From Acidimicrobiia bacterium (GTDB taxonomy: Bacteria > Actinomycetota > Acidimicrobiia > Spongiisociales > UBA5794): 64,000 nucleotides of DNA. The stretch lies in assembly GCA_026985095.1 (NCBI GenBank), contig JALSQW010000020.1, positions 1-64,000 on the forward strand, in the 5' to 3' direction. The translations under genes and the position numbers were made by a program. Under the pieces are notes generated by a model. It searched no databases and was not told where the DNA came from. It was given only the letters and a program-made list of their open reading frames with translations. Every line of letters starts with the position of its first letter. Within the stretch, counting starts at the first letter, position 1. This document shows, one piece after another, positions 6,040 through 13,680 of this stretch.

Positions 6040-7380
6040 ATGGTGGACACCTCCGATGCGGCTCGACCCCGGCAGGTCGGAACCTTCCTCCGCATCGAAT
6101 GGCAAGAGCTCGGCCCCATCGGCCGCACGGTCCTGGTCGCCCTCGGCATGTTCCTCGTCGTGGCCGTCGCCCTCGCCGTCGCCATCCCTCGGCAGATCGA
6201 GGCGCATCTCATCGACGGACACATCCGCTCCCTGACCCGCGTCGTGGACGACCTCGACGCCGAGGGCATGATCCCGACGGGATCCGACGACGCCCTCGTC
6301 GAGCTCGACACCGCCGTGCGGCGGCATCTCCTCGGCGCCGACGTCGTTCGCGTCAAGGTCTGGCTCCCCGACGGGACGGTCGCGTACGCCGACGAGCCGG
6401 CGCTGATCGGCCGCTCGTTCGAACGATCCGCGGACCTCGACGCGGCGTTCGCCGGCGTCCCCATCTCCGACGTACCCGAACTGGAACGACCCGAGAACGT
6501 CTTCGAACGCGACCTCCCGCCGCTGCGAGAGTTCTACATCCCCGTGGACGGCCCCACCGGAACGAAGGCGGTGTTCGAGGTCTACCACCTCGCCGAGCCC
6601 ATCGAATCCACCGTGGCGGACATCCGTACCTACGTGTGGATCAGCCTCCTGGGCGGGATCGGCCTCCTGGCTGCGTTCGTCGCCACGCTCATCGTCATCA
6701 ACGGCCGGGCCGTCACTCGACGTCAACGGCTCGCCGAGGACCTCCTCGCCGATCTCGTCACCGCCCAAGCGCGCGAGCGGACCCGCATCATCGGGTCGCT
6801 CCACGACGACATCGGCCAGTCGCTGTACCGCATCCACTACGGCATCGAGGATCTCCGCACGAAGATCCCTCCCGATGATCCGGCTTCGCAGGAGCTCACC
6901 CACCTGTCGACACTCGTCGCCGACGTCGAGGGCAGCCTCCGAGCCGAACTGCGCTCGCTGTTCCAGGAGGACGGCAACGAGCTGTCCCTGGGGTTCGAAC
7001 TCGACGAACTGGCCGAGGTCACCGAGATGGAGTCCGATCTGGCCGTCGACGTGCGCCTCGACGGCTCTCCCCGGATCGAGCTGCTCGACCCCGCCGGTCG
7101 CGCCCTACTGGTTCGTGCCGCGCGGGAGGCCATCACCAACGTCCGCAAACACGCCCAGGCGTCGAAGGTGAAGATCGTCGTCCGCGGAACCGCCGACCGC
7201 GTGTCGCTCGAGGTCTCCGACGACGGCATCGGTATCTCCGGCGACGAAGGCCTCGGGATCGTCACGACCCGCCGCCGCCTCGAATCGTCCGGCGGCGGGC
7301 TCGTCGTCGAACGCGGCCGATCGGGCGGTACCCGTTTCGAGGCATGGCTGCCGCCGGCCGAATGCGGAGCCGGGACGTGA
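6040..7380 (+). CDS. NarL-partner type sensor histidine kinase
   Basis: A 446-residue membrane kinase. TM1 is at about 29-50, an extracytoplasmic sensor domain of about 150 residues follows, and TM2 is at about 200-225. The HisKA_3 dimerisation helix carries phospho-acceptor His255 in GSLHDDIGQSL, and a HATPase_c domain shows the N box (REAITNVRKHA), DDGIG and GLGIV. This is the LiaS/DegS/NarX architecture, which phosphorylates NarL/FixJ regulators. The extracellular signal is unknown; the sensor domain lacks recognisable haem or metal motifs. The regulator gene overlaps its stop (GTGA at 7377), and a respiratory gene cluster starts 190 nt after the pair, so control of that cluster is plausible but unproven. 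Confidence 0.92.
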   Translation: MVDTSDAARPRQVGTFLRIEWQELGPIGRTVLVALGMFLVVAVALAVAIPRQIEAHLIDGHIRSLTRVVDDLDAEGMIPTGSDDALVELDTAVRRHLLGADVVRVKVWLPDGTVAYADEPALIGRSFERSADLDAAFAGVPISDVPELERPENVFERDLPPLREFYIPVDGPTGTKAVFEVYHLAEPIESTVADIRTYVWISLLGGIGLLAAFVATLIVINGRAVTRRQRLAEDLLADLVTAQARERTRIIGSLHDDIGQSLYRIHYGIEDLRTKIPPDDPASQELTHLSTLVADVEGSLRAELRSLFQEDGNELSLGFELDELAEVTEMESDLAVDVRLDGSPRIELLDPAGRALLVRAAREAITNVRKHAQASKVKIVVRGTADRVSLEVSDDGIGISGDEGLGIVTTRRRLESSGGGLVVERGRSGGTRFEAWLPPAECGAGT

Positions 7381-8006
7381 AGGTCCTCGTCGTCGACGAT
7401 CATCGGATCGTGCGGGAAGGGATCCGCATGCTCCTCGATTCGGCGCCCGAGGTCGACGAGGTATCCGAGGCGACCAACGGCCAGGAGGCCATCGACACCA
7501 TCGCGTCGGCCGAAATCGACGTCGTGCTCCTCGACGTCCGGATGCCCGACATGGACGGTCTCCAGGTGCTGTCTCGACTCCAGGAACAGAGCGCCACACC
7601 GCGGGTCATCGTCCTGTCGATGTACGACGACCCGGCGTACGTCAAGCGCGCCGTCGAGCTGGGGGCGTCCGGCTACCTCCTCAAGTCCGTCGGTCGCGAC
7701 GAGCTCCTTCGGGCGCTGTCGGTGGTCGCCGGCGGCGGGTCGTACATCCAAGGCGAGATCACCGCGCCGCTCATCGCCAGGATGGTCGACCCGGCAGCCG
7801 GCGGCCCCGTCGGGCAGCTCAGTATCGAAGACATCGACATGTTGCAGATGCTCGCCGAAGGGCTCGACAACCGAGCGATCGCCCGGCGGATGGGGATCTC
7901 CGAAGCCGGGGTGAAGGCTCACCTCCGCAGCATCTACGCCAGGCTCGAGGTGAAACGTCGCTCCGAGGCCGTCGCCGTGGCGCTGCGCCTCGGTCTCATC
8001 ACCTGA
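7377..8006 (+). CDS. NarL/FixJ-family response regulator
   Basis: A 209-residue two-domain regulator. The receiver has the acidic pair DDH near residue 7, phospho-acceptor Asp53 in VVLLDVRMPDMDG, and the conserved Ser/Lys region ending YLLKSVG. The C-terminal LuxR-type helix-turn-helix includes MLAEGLDNRAIARRMGISEAGVKAHL. GTG at 7377 overlaps the kinase stop and has GCGGAG eight bases upstream; an ATG at 7362 would add five residues. It forms a pair with the preceding kinase. Likely targets are neighbouring genes, but no operator could be identified. Confidence 0.92.
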   Translation: MKVLVVDDHRIVREGIRMLLDSAPEVDEVSEATNGQEAIDTIASAEIDVVLLDVRMPDMDGLQVLSRLQEQSATPRVIVLSMYDDPAYVKRAVELGASGYLLKSVGRDELLRALSVVAGGGSYIQGEITAPLIARMVDPAAGGPVGQLSIEDIDMLQMLAEGLDNRAIARRMGISEAGVKAHLRSIYARLEVKRRSEAVAVALRLGLIT

Positions 8007-8196
8007 CGGTGACGGTCCCCCGATAGGGCCGAAGGTCCCCAACGGCTGATCGGCAGGCGACCACCGTGTCCTCCCAGCGGATACCCAACAGTGGCGCATC
8101 GCCCTCGGGACTGCCCGTCTGGCTACCCGTACGGTGCACGTAGACGCAGTTCGCCGGGCCGACATGGCCGGTGCGGACACCGAGGAGGTACCAGGA

Positions 8197-9078
8197 ATGA
8201 GAACGCGATGGTTCGTACTGCTGGCGCTGGTGGCGCTGGTGGCTGCCGCATGTTCCAGCGGCGGGACGACCACCACCAAGAGCGAGAGCGGCGGCGACGC
8301 GGCCGCGACGACCACGACCGAGAATGAAGAGATGGAGAGCCACGAGCCGACGGTGTTCGTCGACGCGCCGGTGGCGTCGATCACCGTCGACGGCGACCCG
8401 TCCGACTGGGCGACCATCGATGGGCTCGACATCGAGCTCGAACCGATCGAGGAAGAGGTCGGCAAAGGACCCGAGAACCGGGATGCGACGGTCAAGTTCG
8501 CCCACGACGACGAGAACATCTACGCCCTCGTGACCGTCGACGACGACTACAACTTCGACCCGAACAACGCCCACTTCTCCGCCGCGGTGGCGGTCATGTT
8601 CAACATCGATGGTGCGCCCCACATGGGCGCCGACGACGATGCCGGCGAGAACTCGGTCGGGATGGTCGACATCTGGCACTGGGAGCTCGACTGCGCGTCG
8701 GGTGAGCAGTCCGGCGGTGCCGTGAACCCGGCCGGGGACGGCAGCGATCCCGGCAACGACTCGGTGTGCAACCTCGACGACGAGTGGGCCACCGACTCGG
8801 ACAACCGTGAGGACGACAACACGGCGACCGGCGAGAACAGCCTGCTGGGCGTGTGGTCGCATTCGAACCCGGTCGAGGACGGCGAAGGCCAGTGGTACTT
8901 CGAGTTGTCCCGTCCCTTGCAGACCGGCGACGAGCAGGACGCCCAGTTCACGGTCGGCGACACGGCGGAACTCGCCATCGCCTACTGGGATCCGGACTTC
9001 TCCCCCGAAGGCTGGGACGGGGACCATCACGTGCAGTCGGCAGAGCTCGGCTGGATCGGGGTGAACCTCCAGGGATGA
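8197..9078 (+). CDS. Lipoprotein with EB_dh-like (ethylbenzene dehydrogenase gamma-type) haem domain
   Basis: A 293-residue exported lipoprotein (lipobox VAAAC, Cys19), then a Ser/Thr/Glu-rich linker and one beta-rich domain. Hallmarks of the EB_dh/DMSO-reductase haem-subunit family are visible: VDGDPSDWATIDG, the VDIWHWELD segment, and the C-terminal WYFELSRPLQTGD and AELAIAYWDP strands. In characterised members this domain binds haem b and passes electrons to or from a molybdoenzyme; none is encoded here. An expanded acidic, Asn/Asp-rich insert containing two Cys lies mid-domain. GAGGAGG precedes the ATG at 8197. It sits between a two-component system and a cytochrome bc operon, so a periplasmic electron-transfer role is a reasonable guess. 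Confidence 0.7.
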   Translation: MRTRWFVLLALVALVAAACSSGGTTTTKSESGGDAAATTTTENEEMESHEPTVFVDAPVASITVDGDPSDWATIDGLDIELEPIEEEVGKGPENRDATVKFAHDDENIYALVTVDDDYNFDPNNAHFSAAVAVMFNIDGAPHMGADDDAGENSVGMVDIWHWELDCASGEQSGGAVNPAGDGSDPGNDSVCNLDDEWATDSDNREDDNTATGENSLLGVWSHSNPVEDGEGQWYFELSRPLQTGDEQDAQFTVGDTAELAIAYWDPDFSPEGWDGDHHVQSAELGWIGVNLQG

Positions 9079-9183: not shown

Positions 9184-9411
9184 ATGAGGAACCGAGGCAG
9201 GATCTCGCATGGCAGGGCCGCCCTGTCCGCCATCGCCATCTTCGTGTACTTCGCCGTGTTCACGGCCTGGCTCCCGTCCTACGTGCTGCGTACCGCCTTG
9301 TCGTCGGCCCCCAAGAACGTGGCGGACCTCGTCACCGTCGGGATCTGGGGGGCAACCCTCCTCGCCGGCCTGTGGGGTCTGCGGAAGGCCCAGGAGGAGG
9401 GATGGATCTGA
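9184..9411 (+). CDS. Small two-helix membrane protein, first gene of the bc operon
   Basis: A 75-residue protein with two hydrophobic segments (about 12-32 and 47-64), a basic N-terminus and a charged KAQEEGWI tail. No family is recognised. It begins the operon that continues with an NAD(P)/FeS oxidoreductase and cytochrome bc genes, and its stop overlaps the next start by ten bases. A structural subunit anchoring the soluble oxidoreductase to the membrane complex would fit its position. ATG at 9184 follows GGGAGGAGCG; an upstream ATG at 9142 lacks such a signal. Confidence 0.65.
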   Translation: MRNRGRISHGRAALSAIAIFVYFAVFTAWLPSYVLRTALSSAPKNVADLVTVGIWGATLLAGLWGLRKAQEEGWI

Positions 9412-11237
9412 CGATGGGGAACGGCCTCGGGTTCTACGACCTGAACATCCCGTGCCTCGCGGCCTGTCCGGTCCACACCAACGCCGGCGCCTACGTCGCC
9501 GCGATCGCCGACGGCGACGACCGGTTCGCCTACCTCACCGCTCGGCTGCCCAATCCCTTCGCGTCGGTCTGCGGCCGGGTGTGTGCAGCTCCATGCGAGG
9601 ACGCCTGCCGGAGGGGCAAGATCGACCGACCCATCGCTATCCGGGCGTTGAAGCGGTTCGTGACCGAGAAGTACGGACCCGAATCGGGACACGACAGTCT
9701 GTGGAGCATCGTCGATCGGCCGGCTCCCGCCGATCGTCACGGCCGCGTCGCCGTCGTCGGAGGCGGTCCCGCCGGGCTGGCGTGCGCCCACGATCTGCTC
9801 CTCCAGGGCTACGGCGTGTCGCTGTACGAGGCGACCGGCCGGCTGGGAGGCATGATGGTCTTGGGCATCCCCGAGTACCGGCTTCCCCGAGACGTCATCG
9901 ACGGCGAGATCCAGGCGATCGTCGACCTCGGGCTCGACGTGCATCTCGAGACCCGGTTGGGTCGTGACCTGACGCTCGACGATCTCCGCCGTGACCACGA
10001 CGCGGTGTTCCTCGCCATCGGGGCGATGCTCGGGCGGGACCTCGACATCCCCGGCCACGAAGCAGACGGCGTGTTCCGCGCGGTCGAGTTCCTCCTCAAC
10101 ATCAACCAAGGGTTCACGGTCGACGTCGGCGAGAAGGTCGTCGTGATCGGCGGCGGCAACGTCGCGATGGACGCCGCCCGCACGGCCCTTCGCGCTGCGG
10201 CCTATCAGCGCCGGGAAGCCACCCCCGACTCGCCGCCCGTCGACGACGGCTCCGGTCCGGGCCATGCGATCGATGTGGCCAGGAGCGCCCGCCGGGCGGG
10301 CGCGACGGAGGTCACGGTCGTTTCGCTCGAATCGCGTGAAGAGATGCCGGCTGCCGAGTACGAGATCGAGGAAGCCGAAGCCGAGGACATCGAGTTCGTC
10401 AACCGTCGGGGGCCGAAGGCGATCATCACCGACGACGACGGCCGGGTCACCGGCCTCGAGACGGTCGGCGTCACCCGCGTGTTCGACGACGATGGCCGGT
10501 TCGCTCCGCAGTTCGACGAGACCGACATGGCGGTCCTCGATGCCGACACGGTCATCCTGGCCATCGGGCAGGCGATCGACGTGGCCGCGCTGGGCGCCGG
10601 CGGCCCCGAGATCTCTCCGCGGGGCACGATCCTCACCGACCCAGAGACGCTGCGGACGTCGCTCCCCGACGTGTGGGCCGGCGGGGACGCGGCGTTCGGA
10701 CCGCGGCTGCTCATCACCGCGGTGGCCGAAGGTCGCAAGGCGGCCGCGTCGATCCACGCGGCTCTGGCGCCGGCCGATGTGCCTCTGGCTCCTCGACCTT
10801 CGGGCCGGATAACGATCGTGGAGGGCTTCCATCGGGAGATGGATCGGTACGACGAGCGCGACCGGGTCCCCATCCCGTCGCTTCCCAGCGGCCGTCGGAT
10901 CGGCCTCGAGGAGGTCGAGGTGGGCTACAGCGAGGAGGAGGCCCGCGCGGAGGCGGCCAGGTGCCTGCGCTGCTTCCTCGACATCCAGCTCGACGTGGCG
11001 TCGTGTGTGCTGTGTGGACTGTGCGCCGACGTGTGCCCTCTCGACCTGATCTCGCTCGTGCCTGCCGAGGCCCTCGGTGGCGTGCCCGGGCACACGGCGC
11101 TGGTCCTGGACGAGTCGGCGTGCATCCGCTGCGCCCTGTGCGTGGATCGGTGCCCGTCGAAAGCGCTGTCCATGGGGAAATGGACCGGCGTCGGCGTACC
11201 GGAGGGGATCCCCTTGACGATCGGAGGAGTGGCATGA
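9402..11237 (+). CDS. GltD-like NAD(P)/FAD oxidoreductase with [4Fe-4S] domains
   Basis: A 611-residue cytoplasmic flavo-iron-sulfur protein built as a glutamate-synthase small subunit plus ferredoxin. The N-terminal Cys cluster region starts at C18/C22 (CLAACPVH) and continues with CGRVC, CEDAC. A FAD Rossmann site is VVGGGPAGLACAHDL (about 110), an NAD(P) Rossmann site is VIGGGNVAMDAARTA (about 245), and the FAD-closing motif is AGGDAAFGP. The C-terminal dicluster ferredoxin has CxxCxxCxxxCP at 535-545 and 574-584. No glutamine amidotransferase/GltB gene is adjacent; it is embedded in a cytochrome bc operon, so it probably exchanges electrons between NAD(P)H or ferredoxin and the quinone-linked complex. 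ATG 9402 has GGAGG upstream; 9414 is an alternative. Confidence 0.88.
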   Translation: MDLTMGNGLGFYDLNIPCLAACPVHTNAGAYVAAIADGDDRFAYLTARLPNPFASVCGRVCAAPCEDACRRGKIDRPIAIRALKRFVTEKYGPESGHDSLWSIVDRPAPADRHGRVAVVGGGPAGLACAHDLLLQGYGVSLYEATGRLGGMMVLGIPEYRLPRDVIDGEIQAIVDLGLDVHLETRLGRDLTLDDLRRDHDAVFLAIGAMLGRDLDIPGHEADGVFRAVEFLLNINQGFTVDVGEKVVVIGGGNVAMDAARTALRAAAYQRREATPDSPPVDDGSGPGHAIDVARSARRAGATEVTVVSLESREEMPAAEYEIEEAEAEDIEFVNRRGPKAIITDDDGRVTGLETVGVTRVFDDDGRFAPQFDETDMAVLDADTVILAIGQAIDVAALGAGGPEISPRGTILTDPETLRTSLPDVWAGGDAAFGPRLLITAVAEGRKAAASIHAALAPADVPLAPRPSGRITIVEGFHREMDRYDERDRVPIPSLPSGRRIGLEEVEVGYSEEEARAEAARCLRCFLDIQLDVASCVLCGLCADVCPLDLISLVPAEALGGVPGHTALVLDESACIRCALCVDRCPSKALSMGKWTGVGVPEGIPLTIGGVA

Positions 11238-11968
11238 AGCCGACGGTCACCGAACGGGTGAAAGAGACGACGGTCGGGCGGTCGATCTTCCGGGTGCCCG
11301 ACCGCCAGACGCCGCGCGAGCGCGCCGAGGGGCATTGGGCCAACTTCTTCCTTCACCTGTACCCGGTGAAGATCCGCAGGGAAGAGCTCGGCTTCCGCTA
11401 CTCGTGGTACCTCGGGGTGATCAGCTTGACGCTGTTCGTTTCGCTGATCGTCTCGGGGGTCTACCTGATGTTCTTCTACGTGCCGTCGCCGACGACGGCG
11501 TACGGCAACATCCAGTTCCTCCAGACGAGCGTGCCCTTCGGGCAGTTCATCCGCAACGTCCACCGCTGGTCGGCCCATCTGATGGTCGTCGCCGTGATGG
11601 CCCACATGGCGAAGGTCTTCTACCGGGGAGCCTACAAACCGCCCCGCGAGTTCAACTGGGTGATCGGTGTCGTGCTGCTCGTGCTCACGCTGTTGATGTC
11701 GTTCACCGGCTACCTGTTGCCGTGGGACCAGTTGGCGTACTGGGCCATCACCGTGGGAACGTCGCTGGCGGCGTACGTCCCGTTCGTCGGCAAGCAGGTC
11801 TCGCAACTGTTGCTCGGCGGACCGCAGGTGTCGTCGGCGACGTTGCTGCGCTTCTACGTGCTGCACGTGGCGATGCTGCCGGTGATCCTCGTGATGGCGA
11901 TCGTCATCCACCTGTGGCGATGGCGCAAAGACGGCACCCTCGATCCAGGAGGTGAGCTCGATGTCTGA
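11234..11968 (+). CDS. Cytochrome b6-type subunit of a bc complex
   Basis: A 244-residue four-helix cytochrome b. Haem ligands are His110/His124 on helix B (14 apart) and His211/His226 on helix D (15 apart); the 15-residue helix-D spacing is the b6f hallmark, as is the split from subunit IV. Conserved NVHRWSAH, FTGYLLPWDQ and RFYVLHVAMLP are present. The position matching cytochrome b6 Cys35, which holds the extra haem c_n/c_i covalently, reads Tyr59 (SWYLGV), so that thioether bond cannot form. The start overlaps the previous stop (ATGA). It oxidises quinol, probably menaquinol, in the inner membrane. Confidence 0.93.
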   Translation: MKPTVTERVKETTVGRSIFRVPDRQTPRERAEGHWANFFLHLYPVKIRREELGFRYSWYLGVISLTLFVSLIVSGVYLMFFYVPSPTTAYGNIQFLQTSVPFGQFIRNVHRWSAHLMVVAVMAHMAKVFYRGAYKPPREFNWVIGVVLLVLTLLMSFTGYLLPWDQLAYWAITVGTSLAAYVPFVGKQVSQLLLGGPQVSSATLLRFYVLHVAMLPVILVMAIVIHLWRWRKDGTLDPGGELDV

Positions 11969-12479
11969 GGAGCCACGCATCGTCGACGGTTCTCGGGTCC
12001 TCGGGGTGGTTCCCGGCAAACCGGCCGTTGGTGAGGAGAAGATCCCCGCCCGGCAGAGACTCGTCTTCGTGTGGCCGCATCTGTTGGTCCGCCACGCCGT
12101 CGCGTCGCTTGGTGTGCTGCTGTTCGTGCTCGCCGTCTCGTTGGTCTTCGATGCCCCGCTGCGGGAGATCGCCAATCCCATGTCCACCCCGAACCCGGAG
12201 AAGGCGCCCTGGTACTTCGTGGGGCTCCAGGAGCTGCTGAGCCACCTCCATCCGATGATCGCCGGGGTCCTGCTACCGGGCCTGATCGTGATCGGTCTGG
12301 TGGCGCTGCCCTACATCGACCGCAACCCCCAGAAGAGGGCCCGCTACCGCAAGGTGGCGGTGTGGACCTTCACGCTCTTCCTCGTCGCGTGGCTGGCGGC
12401 GACCATCATCGGCTTCGCGTTCCGAGGGCCCGACTGGACGTGGGTGTGGCCATGGAATGGGTGGTACGGCGAACTATGA
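11961..12479 (+). CDS. Cytochrome b6f subunit-IV-type protein
   Basis: A 172-residue protein equivalent to the C-terminal part of cytochrome b (helices E-G), with three hydrophobic segments after a 40-residue N-terminal cytoplasmic part. The quinol-oxidation loop reads KAPWYFVGLQE (APWY at 82-85), so the PEWY glutamate of canonical complexes is replaced by Pro. I recall such PPWY-like variants in other bacterial lineages. ATG 11961 lies eight bases after AGGAGG and overlaps the cytochrome b stop; the alternative GTG at 11952 sits within that site. Confidence 0.9.
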   Translation: MSEEPRIVDGSRVLGVVPGKPAVGEEKIPARQRLVFVWPHLLVRHAVASLGVLLFVLAVSLVFDAPLREIANPMSTPNPEKAPWYFVGLQELLSHLHPMIAGVLLPGLIVIGLVALPYIDRNPQKRARYRKVAVWTFTLFLVAWLAATIIGFAFRGPDWTWVWPWNGWYGEL

Positions 12480-12982
12480 GCACCAAGCAACCGATGGAAC
12501 GGCGCAGGTTCCTCTCGAAGATCTGGAAGTGGGCGTTCGGTCTCGTCGCCGTCGCCGGGGCCTGGACGTCGTGGGACGTCCTCCAGCCCGCCAACCCAGG
12601 CGGTTTCGGCGGCAAGATCAAGGACGGCGATCCTGCCGACATCCCCAGCAAGGGGATCGAGACCGTGTCCGCGGCGCAGGCGTATCTCACCAAGGAAGGC
12701 GACGAGGTCGTGGCGTTGTGGTGGCGATGCCCTCACCTGGGATGCCGCGTGCCGTGGTGCGAGACCGCAGGTGAGTTCGAGTGTCCGTGTCACGGTTCAC
12801 GTTTCAACCGTCTCGGCGAGTACCGCGCCGGTCCATCACCGCGAGGCATGGATCGGTTCGCCGTCGAGGTCGTCGACGGTGCCGTCGTCATCGACACCGG
12901 CTCGATCACCGAGGGGCCACCTCCGGGTCCAGAATCGATCGACGAGCCTCCCGGGCCGATGTGCATCGAAGGGGGTGAGTGA
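12476..12982 (+). CDS. Rieske [2Fe-2S] protein of the bc complex
   Basis: A 168-residue protein with a Tat-like signal-anchor (RRRFLSK then a hydrophobic helix at about 18-32) and a C-terminal Rieske domain. Cluster motifs are CPHLGC (85-90) and CPCHGS (103-108); His87 and His106 with Cys85 and Cys103 bind the cluster, and Cys90/Cys105 form the usual disulfide. The proline loop GPSPRGMD follows. It takes one electron from quinol at the Qo site and passes it to cytochrome c. The start overlaps the subunit IV stop (ATGA); the next gene starts on its last base. Confidence 0.94.
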   Translation: MSTKQPMERRRFLSKIWKWAFGLVAVAGAWTSWDVLQPANPGGFGGKIKDGDPADIPSKGIETVSAAQAYLTKEGDEVVALWWRCPHLGCRVPWCETAGEFECPCHGSRFNRLGEYRAGPSPRGMDRFAVEVVDGAVVIDTGSITEGPPPGPESIDEPPGPMCIEGGE

Positions 12983-13680
12983 TGGGCGACTATCGCGTCG
13001 ATGATCCAGAGCTGGAGGAGTCCACCAACCGCTGGATGGCTTGGGGCGCCGTGCTCTTGGTGTTGTTCGTCCTGGCGTTCCCCGTATACCGGATCATCCA
13101 GCCGTCTCGGCTCGCTGCCGCCCAGGCCGCCCTGGATCAGAACCTGGCCGCTCAAGGCGAAGAGATCTTCGCCAACAACTGTGCGCAGTGTCACGGTGCC
13201 GAAGGCGCCGGGGCTATCGGCCCAGCCCTCAAGTCGAAGCAGTTCCTCCAATCGGTCACGGACCAGCAGATGGAGCAGCTCATCTCGACGGGGGTCCCTG
13301 GGACGCTGATGGTGGCGTACGGATCCGACTTCGGTGGTCCGTTGACCCAGGAACAGATCCGGGCGGTCGTCAAGTACCTCCGGTCCTTCGAGGAAGCCGC
13401 CCCCGATTTCCCCGAGTGGCGGACGCCACTCGCCCGGTCCTCCTTGACCGGCAAGGACCTGTACAACCTGGCATGTGCGTACTGCCACGGGGTGAACCTG
13501 GAAGGCAACATCGGTCCCGACCTGGGGAAGGGATCCGACATCACCGAGGAGCCGGACGAGTTCATCGAGAAGCGGATCCGACGAGGCAAAGACGAGATGC
13601 CGGCGTTCGGCAACAGCCTCACCGACGAGCAGATCCAGGACATCATCGACTACCTGCGGGAGGTCCAGCAGGATCCCTGA
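12982..13680 (+). CDS. Membrane-anchored dihaem cytochrome c
   Basis: A 232-residue protein with one N-terminal membrane anchor (about 20-38) and two class-I cytochrome c domains, with haem sites CAQCH (67-71) and CAYCH (165-169). A likely Met ligand of the second haem is in EMPAFG near 206; that of the first may be Met110. Such dihaem subunits replace cytochrome c1/f in many actinobacterial and deltaproteobacterial bc complexes. It is last in the operon, followed by a strong hairpin. ATG 12982 overlaps the Rieske stop; GTG 12979 would add one residue. Confidence 0.92.
   Translation: MGDYRVDDPELEESTNRWMAWGAVLLVLFVLAFPVYRIIQPSRLAAAQAALDQNLAAQGEEIFANNCAQCHGAEGAGAIGPALKSKQFLQSVTDQQMEQLISTGVPGTLMVAYGSDFGGPLTQEQIRAVVKYLRSFEEAAPDFPEWRTPLARSSLTGKDLYNLACAYCHGVNLEGNIGPDLGKGSDITEEPDEFIEKRIRRGKDEMPAFGNSLTDEQIQDIIDYLREVQQDP

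Follow-up and report, generated by a model that had tools for sequence, protein, structure and literature searches.

A conserved actinobacterial operon that most likely encodes a b6f-type complex with a built-in NAD-handling subunit

The window analysed here is a stretch of 64,000 nucleotides from contig 20 (JALSQW010000020.1) of the 2.93 Mb genome of an Acidimicrobiia bacterium, and our subject is a six-gene operon at positions 9184-13680 of its + strand (Table 1). A first-pass annotation had described these genes as a small membrane protein (here called p1), a GltD-like oxidoreductase, a split cytochrome b (b6 and subunit IV), a Rieske protein and a cytochrome c. Domain searches against Pfam and NCBIfam and refined coordinates bear out both the operon and these identities; all six genes lie on the + strand, each overlaps or abuts the next, and some starts were corrected slightly. 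For p1, described there as a two-helix protein, plain hydropathy scanning picks out one helix clearly (residues 12-30) and misses the weaker second. Judged from their sequences, the most likely product of the six genes is a b6f-like respiratory complex in the membrane, with a built-in enzyme that handles nicotinamide adenine dinucleotide (NAD); through it, these actinobacteria may exchange electrons directly among quinol, cytochrome c and NAD.

Table 1. Genes, diagnostic codons and upstream neighbours of the operon (positions in the window).
Feature	Positions	Strand	Remarks
p1, 75-residue membrane protein	9184-9411	+	No Pfam or NCBIfam match
GltD-like FAD/NAD oxidoreductase, 611 residues	9402-11237	+	Pfam Fer4_20 + Pyr_redox_2 + C-terminal Fer4 pair
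Leu309-Glu310-Ser311 codons of GltD-like gene	10326-10334	+	NAD-type residue where NfnABC has NADPH-type YRR (9bov alignment)
Cytochrome b6-like subunit	11234-11968	+	Pfam Cytochrome_B, 161 bits
Tyr59 codon of b6	11408-11410	+	Position of haem cN-binding b6f Cys35
Subunit IV, three predicted helices, APWY motif	11961-12479	+	Pfam Cytochrom_B_C, 47 bits
His45 codon of subunit IV	12093-12095	+	Position is Glu in the haem cN-bearing class B complex
Rieske [2Fe-2S] protein	12476-12982	+	Pfam Rieske, 38 bits; CPCHGSRF cluster loop
Membrane-anchored dihaem cytochrome c	12982-13680	+	Two CxxCH motifs
EB_dh-type lipoprotein that probably carries haem b; may be an accessory protein	8134-9078	+	PF09459, 67.7 bits; same place in L111, L121 and L124
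Sensor kinase, possible regulator	6040-7380	+	Pfam; same place in L111, L121 and L124
LuxR-type response regulator, possible regulator	7344-8006	+	Pfam; same place in L111, L121 and L124

The bc core has the split cytochrome b of the b6f type, with the four histidines that ligate the b haems conserved (His110, His124, His211 and His226 of b6), and a Rieske protein and a c-type cytochrome are encoded in the same operon. The b6f-type feature that is missing is the helix A cysteine for covalent binding of haem cN, which is Tyr59 in the window. Haem b ligands, b6-type histidine spacing, the split cytochrome b and the Rieske protein are thus points of likeness to canonical b6f and bc1 complexes; these, however, have no pyridine-nucleotide enzyme, and b6f has haem cN. 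The Rieske protein has a twin-arginine-like N-terminus (MERRRFLSKIWKWAFG) and keeps the serine of the cluster loop, while the tyrosine is replaced by phenylalanine.

The GltD-like subunit carries an iron-sulphur (FeS) domain of the dihydropyrimidine dehydrogenase type at its N-terminus and a 2[4Fe-4S] domain at its C-terminus. Essentially all 111 sequences of the family keep six N-terminal cysteines, Cys521/Cys524 and eight further cysteines of the ferredoxin type. In a profile alignment with NfnL, the CxxC segment that is N-terminal in NfnL falls at approximately residues 490-524, and with this segment counted in, the ligands are sufficient for about four clusters. An AlphaFold2 model of the protein (predicted local distance difference test score, pLDDT, 78.5) has as its best match NfnABC (9bov). 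For the complexes of the anaerobic ammonium-oxidising (anammox) bacterium Kuenenia stuttgartiensis, which are also modelled with four FeS clusters, NfnABC was likewise named for Kuste4570 (PMC12954380).

NfnABC and other bifurcating transhydrogenases (9bov, 8oh5, 9n5u) share with the window protein a fold that binds flavin adenine dinucleotide (FAD), NAD or its phosphate (NADP) and FeS clusters, as well as the CxxC segment after the NAD domain, but they occur outside bc complexes and keep an NADPH-type YRR where the window family has SLE. Where the second Rossmann strand ends, NfnABC reads YRRxREEMPA versus SLESREEMPA in the window, and Glu310 of this segment is invariant (111/111 sequences). 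An acidic residue at this position usually means NAD, not NADP. Because Glu310 replaces the NADPH-type arginine pair, NAD is more likely than NADP to be the nucleotide of this subunit. The earlier proposal of NAD(P)H or ferredoxin as the soluble partner is thereby narrowed on its first part, while nothing specific points to ferredoxin.

Relatives of the complex fall into several classes. Class A is the window's complex type, and class D is a deeper group, approximately 55% identical, from other families and classes of Actinomycetota. Class B has a plain ferredoxin subunit in place of the GltD-like protein, and class C has neither an FeS nor a NAD subunit. In a cytochrome b tree, class A forms one clade (97/100) and class B another (100/97); class D is not one clade. 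Some rows in the conservation counts given here and below are one record from two collections.

The gene order was counted in the best 80 loci of an independent scan with one genome per species, three of which end before the next gene. The first-pass annotation had proposed a search for genomes in which the GltD-like gene stands directly before b6, and this arrangement was found, on the same strand, in 76 of the 77 informative loci, followed by subunit IV, the Rieske protein and cytochrome c within contig reach. The lone exception, L136, has the order gltD-Rieske-small gene-b6-subunit IV. Furthermore, of the 86 loci tested, 70 have the stop codon of gltD and the start codon of b6 within one shared tetranucleotide (ATGA, GTGA or TTGA), an overlap of the kind that usually marks translational coupling. 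Class D has the same order as the window, and chance is excluded because almost all related loci repeat this order, even those with identities as low as about 55%. Homologous operons without the first two genes, previously named as a sign against the proposal, were not seen for the GltD-like gene, which is present in every checkable operon with this cytochrome b; p1 is less constant. In L043 and L049 the b6 frame continues for 427-430 residues, so that a single protein may combine b6 with subunit IV in these two loci.

The window-type cytochrome b or its GltD-like gene is present in 22 of 41 related genomes, and the GltD-like protein (E-value 1e-150) in 63 of 395 sampled genomes of the actinobacterial class (∼16%). 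The nearest named loci of the scan are metagenome-assembled genomes (MAGs) labelled Actinomycetes, Acidimicrobiia, Acidimicrobiales and Ilumatobacteraceae, which makes an uncultured actinobacterium of the Acidimicrobiia type the most likely host. An earlier description of the operon in Acidimicrobiia was not found in the literature; the search covered open-licence papers only, and so this is weak evidence.

The fixed gene order and the overlap with b6 support the reading of the GltD-like protein as a subunit of the bc complex, as had been proposed. The contrary possibility is that it is a soluble protein that partners a glutamate synthase large subunit (GltB) encoded elsewhere. It is indeed the sole full-length GltD relative in the source genome, and GltB is present there, although not linked to the gltD-like gene. 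Yet six relatives (G007, G011, G016, G019, G025 and G032) carry GltB without any GltD at an E-value of 1e-20; since at least these six do so, GltB in this group is independent of the GltD-like protein. The near-universal linkage to bc genes, the extra C-terminal ferredoxin domain and the missing NADPH motif also speak against a soluble partner, which we consider highly improbable. The best NCBIfam model for the protein is PRK12771 (NAD(P)-binding protein), at 473 bits against a curated cut-off of 516 bits, and every GltD model scores far under its cut-off; with GltB independent of GltD, the identity as a glutamate synthase small subunit was rejected. Open frames of approximately 1190-1240 residues with a GltD-like domain recur in G005, G013, G020, G027, G034 and other genomes.

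The cytochrome b subunits differ between the classes at two positions related to haem cN. The residue of b6 aligned to b6f Cys35 (residue 59) is tyrosine or phenylalanine in 85/85 class A and arginine in 21/21 class D sequences, so that the cysteine is replaced in all 106 rows of the two classes; its equivalent is cysteine in class B (10/10) and glycine in L136. Position 45 of subunit IV is histidine in 82/83 class A and 21/21 class D sequences (103/104 jointly), while the equivalent residue is glutamate in class B (9/9) and in L136. From petD numbering, and from the glutamate ligand of haem cN described for the anammox complexes (PMC12954380), we take this glutamate to be the axial ligand of haem cN. 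Since one replacement is in b6 and the other in subunit IV, and the two occur together, loss of haem cN from the window-type complexes is well supported by the alignments. This loss of both determinants is a new point, absent from the first-pass annotation.

A second pattern in b6 may bear on a further haem. For the anammox complexes, a b-type haem at the interface has been proposed to relay electrons from the b haems onward to the FeS chain, the two cytochrome b monomers contributing one histidine each (Kuste4571 His43, Kustd1481 His62) to hold it (PMC12954380). His41 of b6, which precedes helix A, is invariant in the groups that have a cytoplasmic FeS subunit (classes A, D and B, and L136); class C, which has no such subunit, also lacks an equivalent of His41. 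Arg231 and Lys232 are invariant with the same distribution. The pattern of His41 fits the proposed interface haem, with the Kuenenia histidines compared by description.

Complexes of this NAD-linked Rieske/cytochrome b type are so far a hypothesis from anammox bacteria (PMC12954380), and the parallel that the first-pass annotation drew with them is real. The two Kuenenia clusters (Kuste4569-4574 and Kustd1480-1485) likewise combine a b6-type split cytochrome b, a Rieske protein and an NAD(P) oxidoreductase of the GltD/Nfn fold, and their complexes have about four FeS clusters and a histidine to which His41 before helix A may correspond (PMC12954380). They differ in having a five-helix subunit IV (three helices by hydropathy and a separate p1 in the window), a hexa- or octahaem cytochrome c (one or two haems c here), and a haem cN with its glutamate ligand (cysteine and glutamate both replaced here). 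Because these three anammox features fail, the window complex is, on its sequence features, a variant of the anammox type rather than a member of it. The hosts differ as well: Kuenenia is an anaerobic planctomycete, whereas the window type occurs in actinobacteria, with a heme-copper oxidase adjoining the operon in one relative (L047). The locus L136, from a MAG labelled Bacteroidota, bridges the two types, since it combines a five-helix subunit IV, a multihaem cytochrome c and a Rieske protein that scores 108.6 bits to Kuste4569 with a GltD-like protein 49% identical to that of the window. Among solved structures, the window Rieske protein has the Kuenenia proteins as its first matches; this similarity was tried as evidence of kinship and rejected as unspecific, since the class B Rieske protein gives the same top matches.

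Class B, the second b6-type complex of these genomes (G000:C8, L058), resembles the window type in having a 2[4Fe-4S] protein before b6, subunit IV, Rieske protein and cytochrome c, with b6 approximately 55% identical. It differs in that its ferredoxin subunit lacks the FAD and NAD domains, and in that the haem cN cysteine and the glutamate of subunit IV are kept. This ferredoxin subunit and the C-terminal domain of the GltD-like protein are homologues, encoded in the same place before b6. That bears on a further alternative, in which the partner of the FAD/FeS subunit would be not NAD but a different soluble carrier (ferredoxin or an unknown donor). The two C-terminal [4Fe-4S] clusters and the kinship with the ferredoxin-handling NfnABC would agree with it, but the NAD domain is intact with its invariant NAD-type glutamate, and the ferredoxin-like domain, which is what this protein and the class B subunit have in common, is more likely turned towards cytochrome b; we regard such a carrier as quite improbable. 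Among named families, the best NCBIfam models for the window b6 and subunit IV are ExtP and ExtQ of the Geobacter ExtO/ExtP/ExtQ system (PMC5877670), with scores of 271 and 57 bits that lie below the cut-offs of 290 and 150 bits. The Ext operon has multihaem cytochromes and a porin, and a NAD enzyme is not described for it (PMC5877670). The class B b6 passes the ExtP cut-off (302 versus 290 bits), and the class B operon, at G000:C8:65000-84000, lies beside genes like those of cbb3-type oxidases.

We infer the docking of the subunits, the electron path, the quinone type and the direction of flow as follows. The cytoplasmic NAD/FAD/FeS subunit would dock on the negative side of cytochrome b via its C-terminal 2[4Fe-4S] domain, since the class B counterpart holds the same domain in the same place. 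Menaquinone use is assumed from general knowledge of actinobacteria, and menaquinol would be oxidised at the positive-side site. One electron would pass to the Rieske protein, cytochrome c and a high-potential oxidase, and the other through the two b haems, the FeS clusters and FAD to NAD+, bypassing the route from haem cN to quinone. The midpoints given for the anammox case are approximately -70 mV for menaquinone, approximately -320 mV for NAD, and +303 and +335 mV for the Rieske proteins, the last two being Kuenenia rather than window values (PMC12954380).

Quinol-driven reduction of NAD+ is favoured because the usual negative-side exit is lost, and the claim that the complex reduces NAD+ by bifurcation of electrons from quinol, the role suggested for its anammox counterparts, stands in our judgement evenly poised. 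In the reversed arrangement, NADH would feed FAD and FeS, the b haems and then quinone or the positive-side chain, as a dehydrogenase joined to a bc complex. The structural evidence is identical for the two directions, electron transfer chains can run both ways, and nothing that would call for reverse electron flow, RuBisCO for instance, was found to go with the operon in the 41 genomes. However, complex I is present in 41/41 of them; a NADH-oxidising version would be wasteful because complex I already serves NADH oxidation there, and energy conservation by complex I would be greater. Nor does the loss of haem cN, with which quinone interacts on the negative side of b6f, favour quinone reduction at that site, and we consider the reversed direction unlikely.

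Several points weigh against quinol-driven NAD+ reduction. The sequence does not fix the direction of electron flow. The operon is without association with RuBisCO, a full-length NiFe hydrogenase or CoxL in the 41 genomes, and a link to autotrophy or to the oxidation of H2 or CO was accordingly rejected. Class C, without FeS or NAD subunit, has threonine at the place of the haem cN cysteine (four examined), and the anammox complexes were modelled with haem cN present (PMC12954380); because of these two cases, haem loss and NAD output are not strictly coupled, and haem cN loss as a trait unique to NAD-linked complexes was rejected. That a b6-type complex can lack the cysteine and have no NAD module would also suit an ordinary Q-cycle complex, for which the bc core ligands are intact, and in which the GltD-like subunit would be structural, regulatory or a minor side entry for electrons. 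This is improbable in our view, as the invariant cysteines and nucleotide-binding residues of the GltD-like protein argue for redox activity. The most far-reaching form of the NAD+ reductase proposal is an aerobic actinobacterial complex III turned into a quinone-bifurcating NADH synthase, which would have wholly abandoned negative-side quinone reduction and would make NADH from menaquinol, with the cost covered by the passage of the second electron to cytochrome c and oxygen; we put it forward tentatively, as possible but short of probable.

If quinol-driven NADH formation is true, it would add a NADH route outside complex I. The NAD-linked idea from anammox recurs here with a far smaller set of subunits, the haem cN cysteine and the glutamate of subunit IV, replaced as a pair, give a clear-cut and testable sign of a rewired negative-side electron exit, and a second b6-type complex in the same cell provides an internal control.

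On the positive side, p1 homologues occur in about 50 other loci, and in 22 of 53 related loci p1 is not separate but makes up the C-terminal membrane portion of a longer frame with a cytochrome c domain; sometimes p1 was not found. Downstream, the cytochrome c of the window carries two haems, that of most relatives a single one. The complex thus seems, from these arrangements, to have two positive-side haem sites that are supplied differently. A separate p1 behind an EB_dh-type protein and a sensor kinase/regulator pair occurs in four loci, the window, L111, L121 and L124, and in most relatives a cytochrome c takes the place of the lipoprotein and regulator pair.

Two further neighbours were observed in related loci. 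In L045, L046, L048, L106, L107 and L112, a class C operon (Rieske, b6, subunit IV and cytochrome c) lies just upstream of gltD, in tandem with class A. In L047 (14801-16963, + strand), with a homologue in G000:C11 near 5420, there is a gene for a 720-residue fusion protein in which the N-terminal domain of a cytochrome b is joined to two [4Fe-4S] motifs, an FlpD/MvhD-like domain and a cytochrome c. The gene adjoins the heme-copper oxidase genes and is divergent from the operon, and similar divergent neighbours are found in approximately 16 of the 80 loci.

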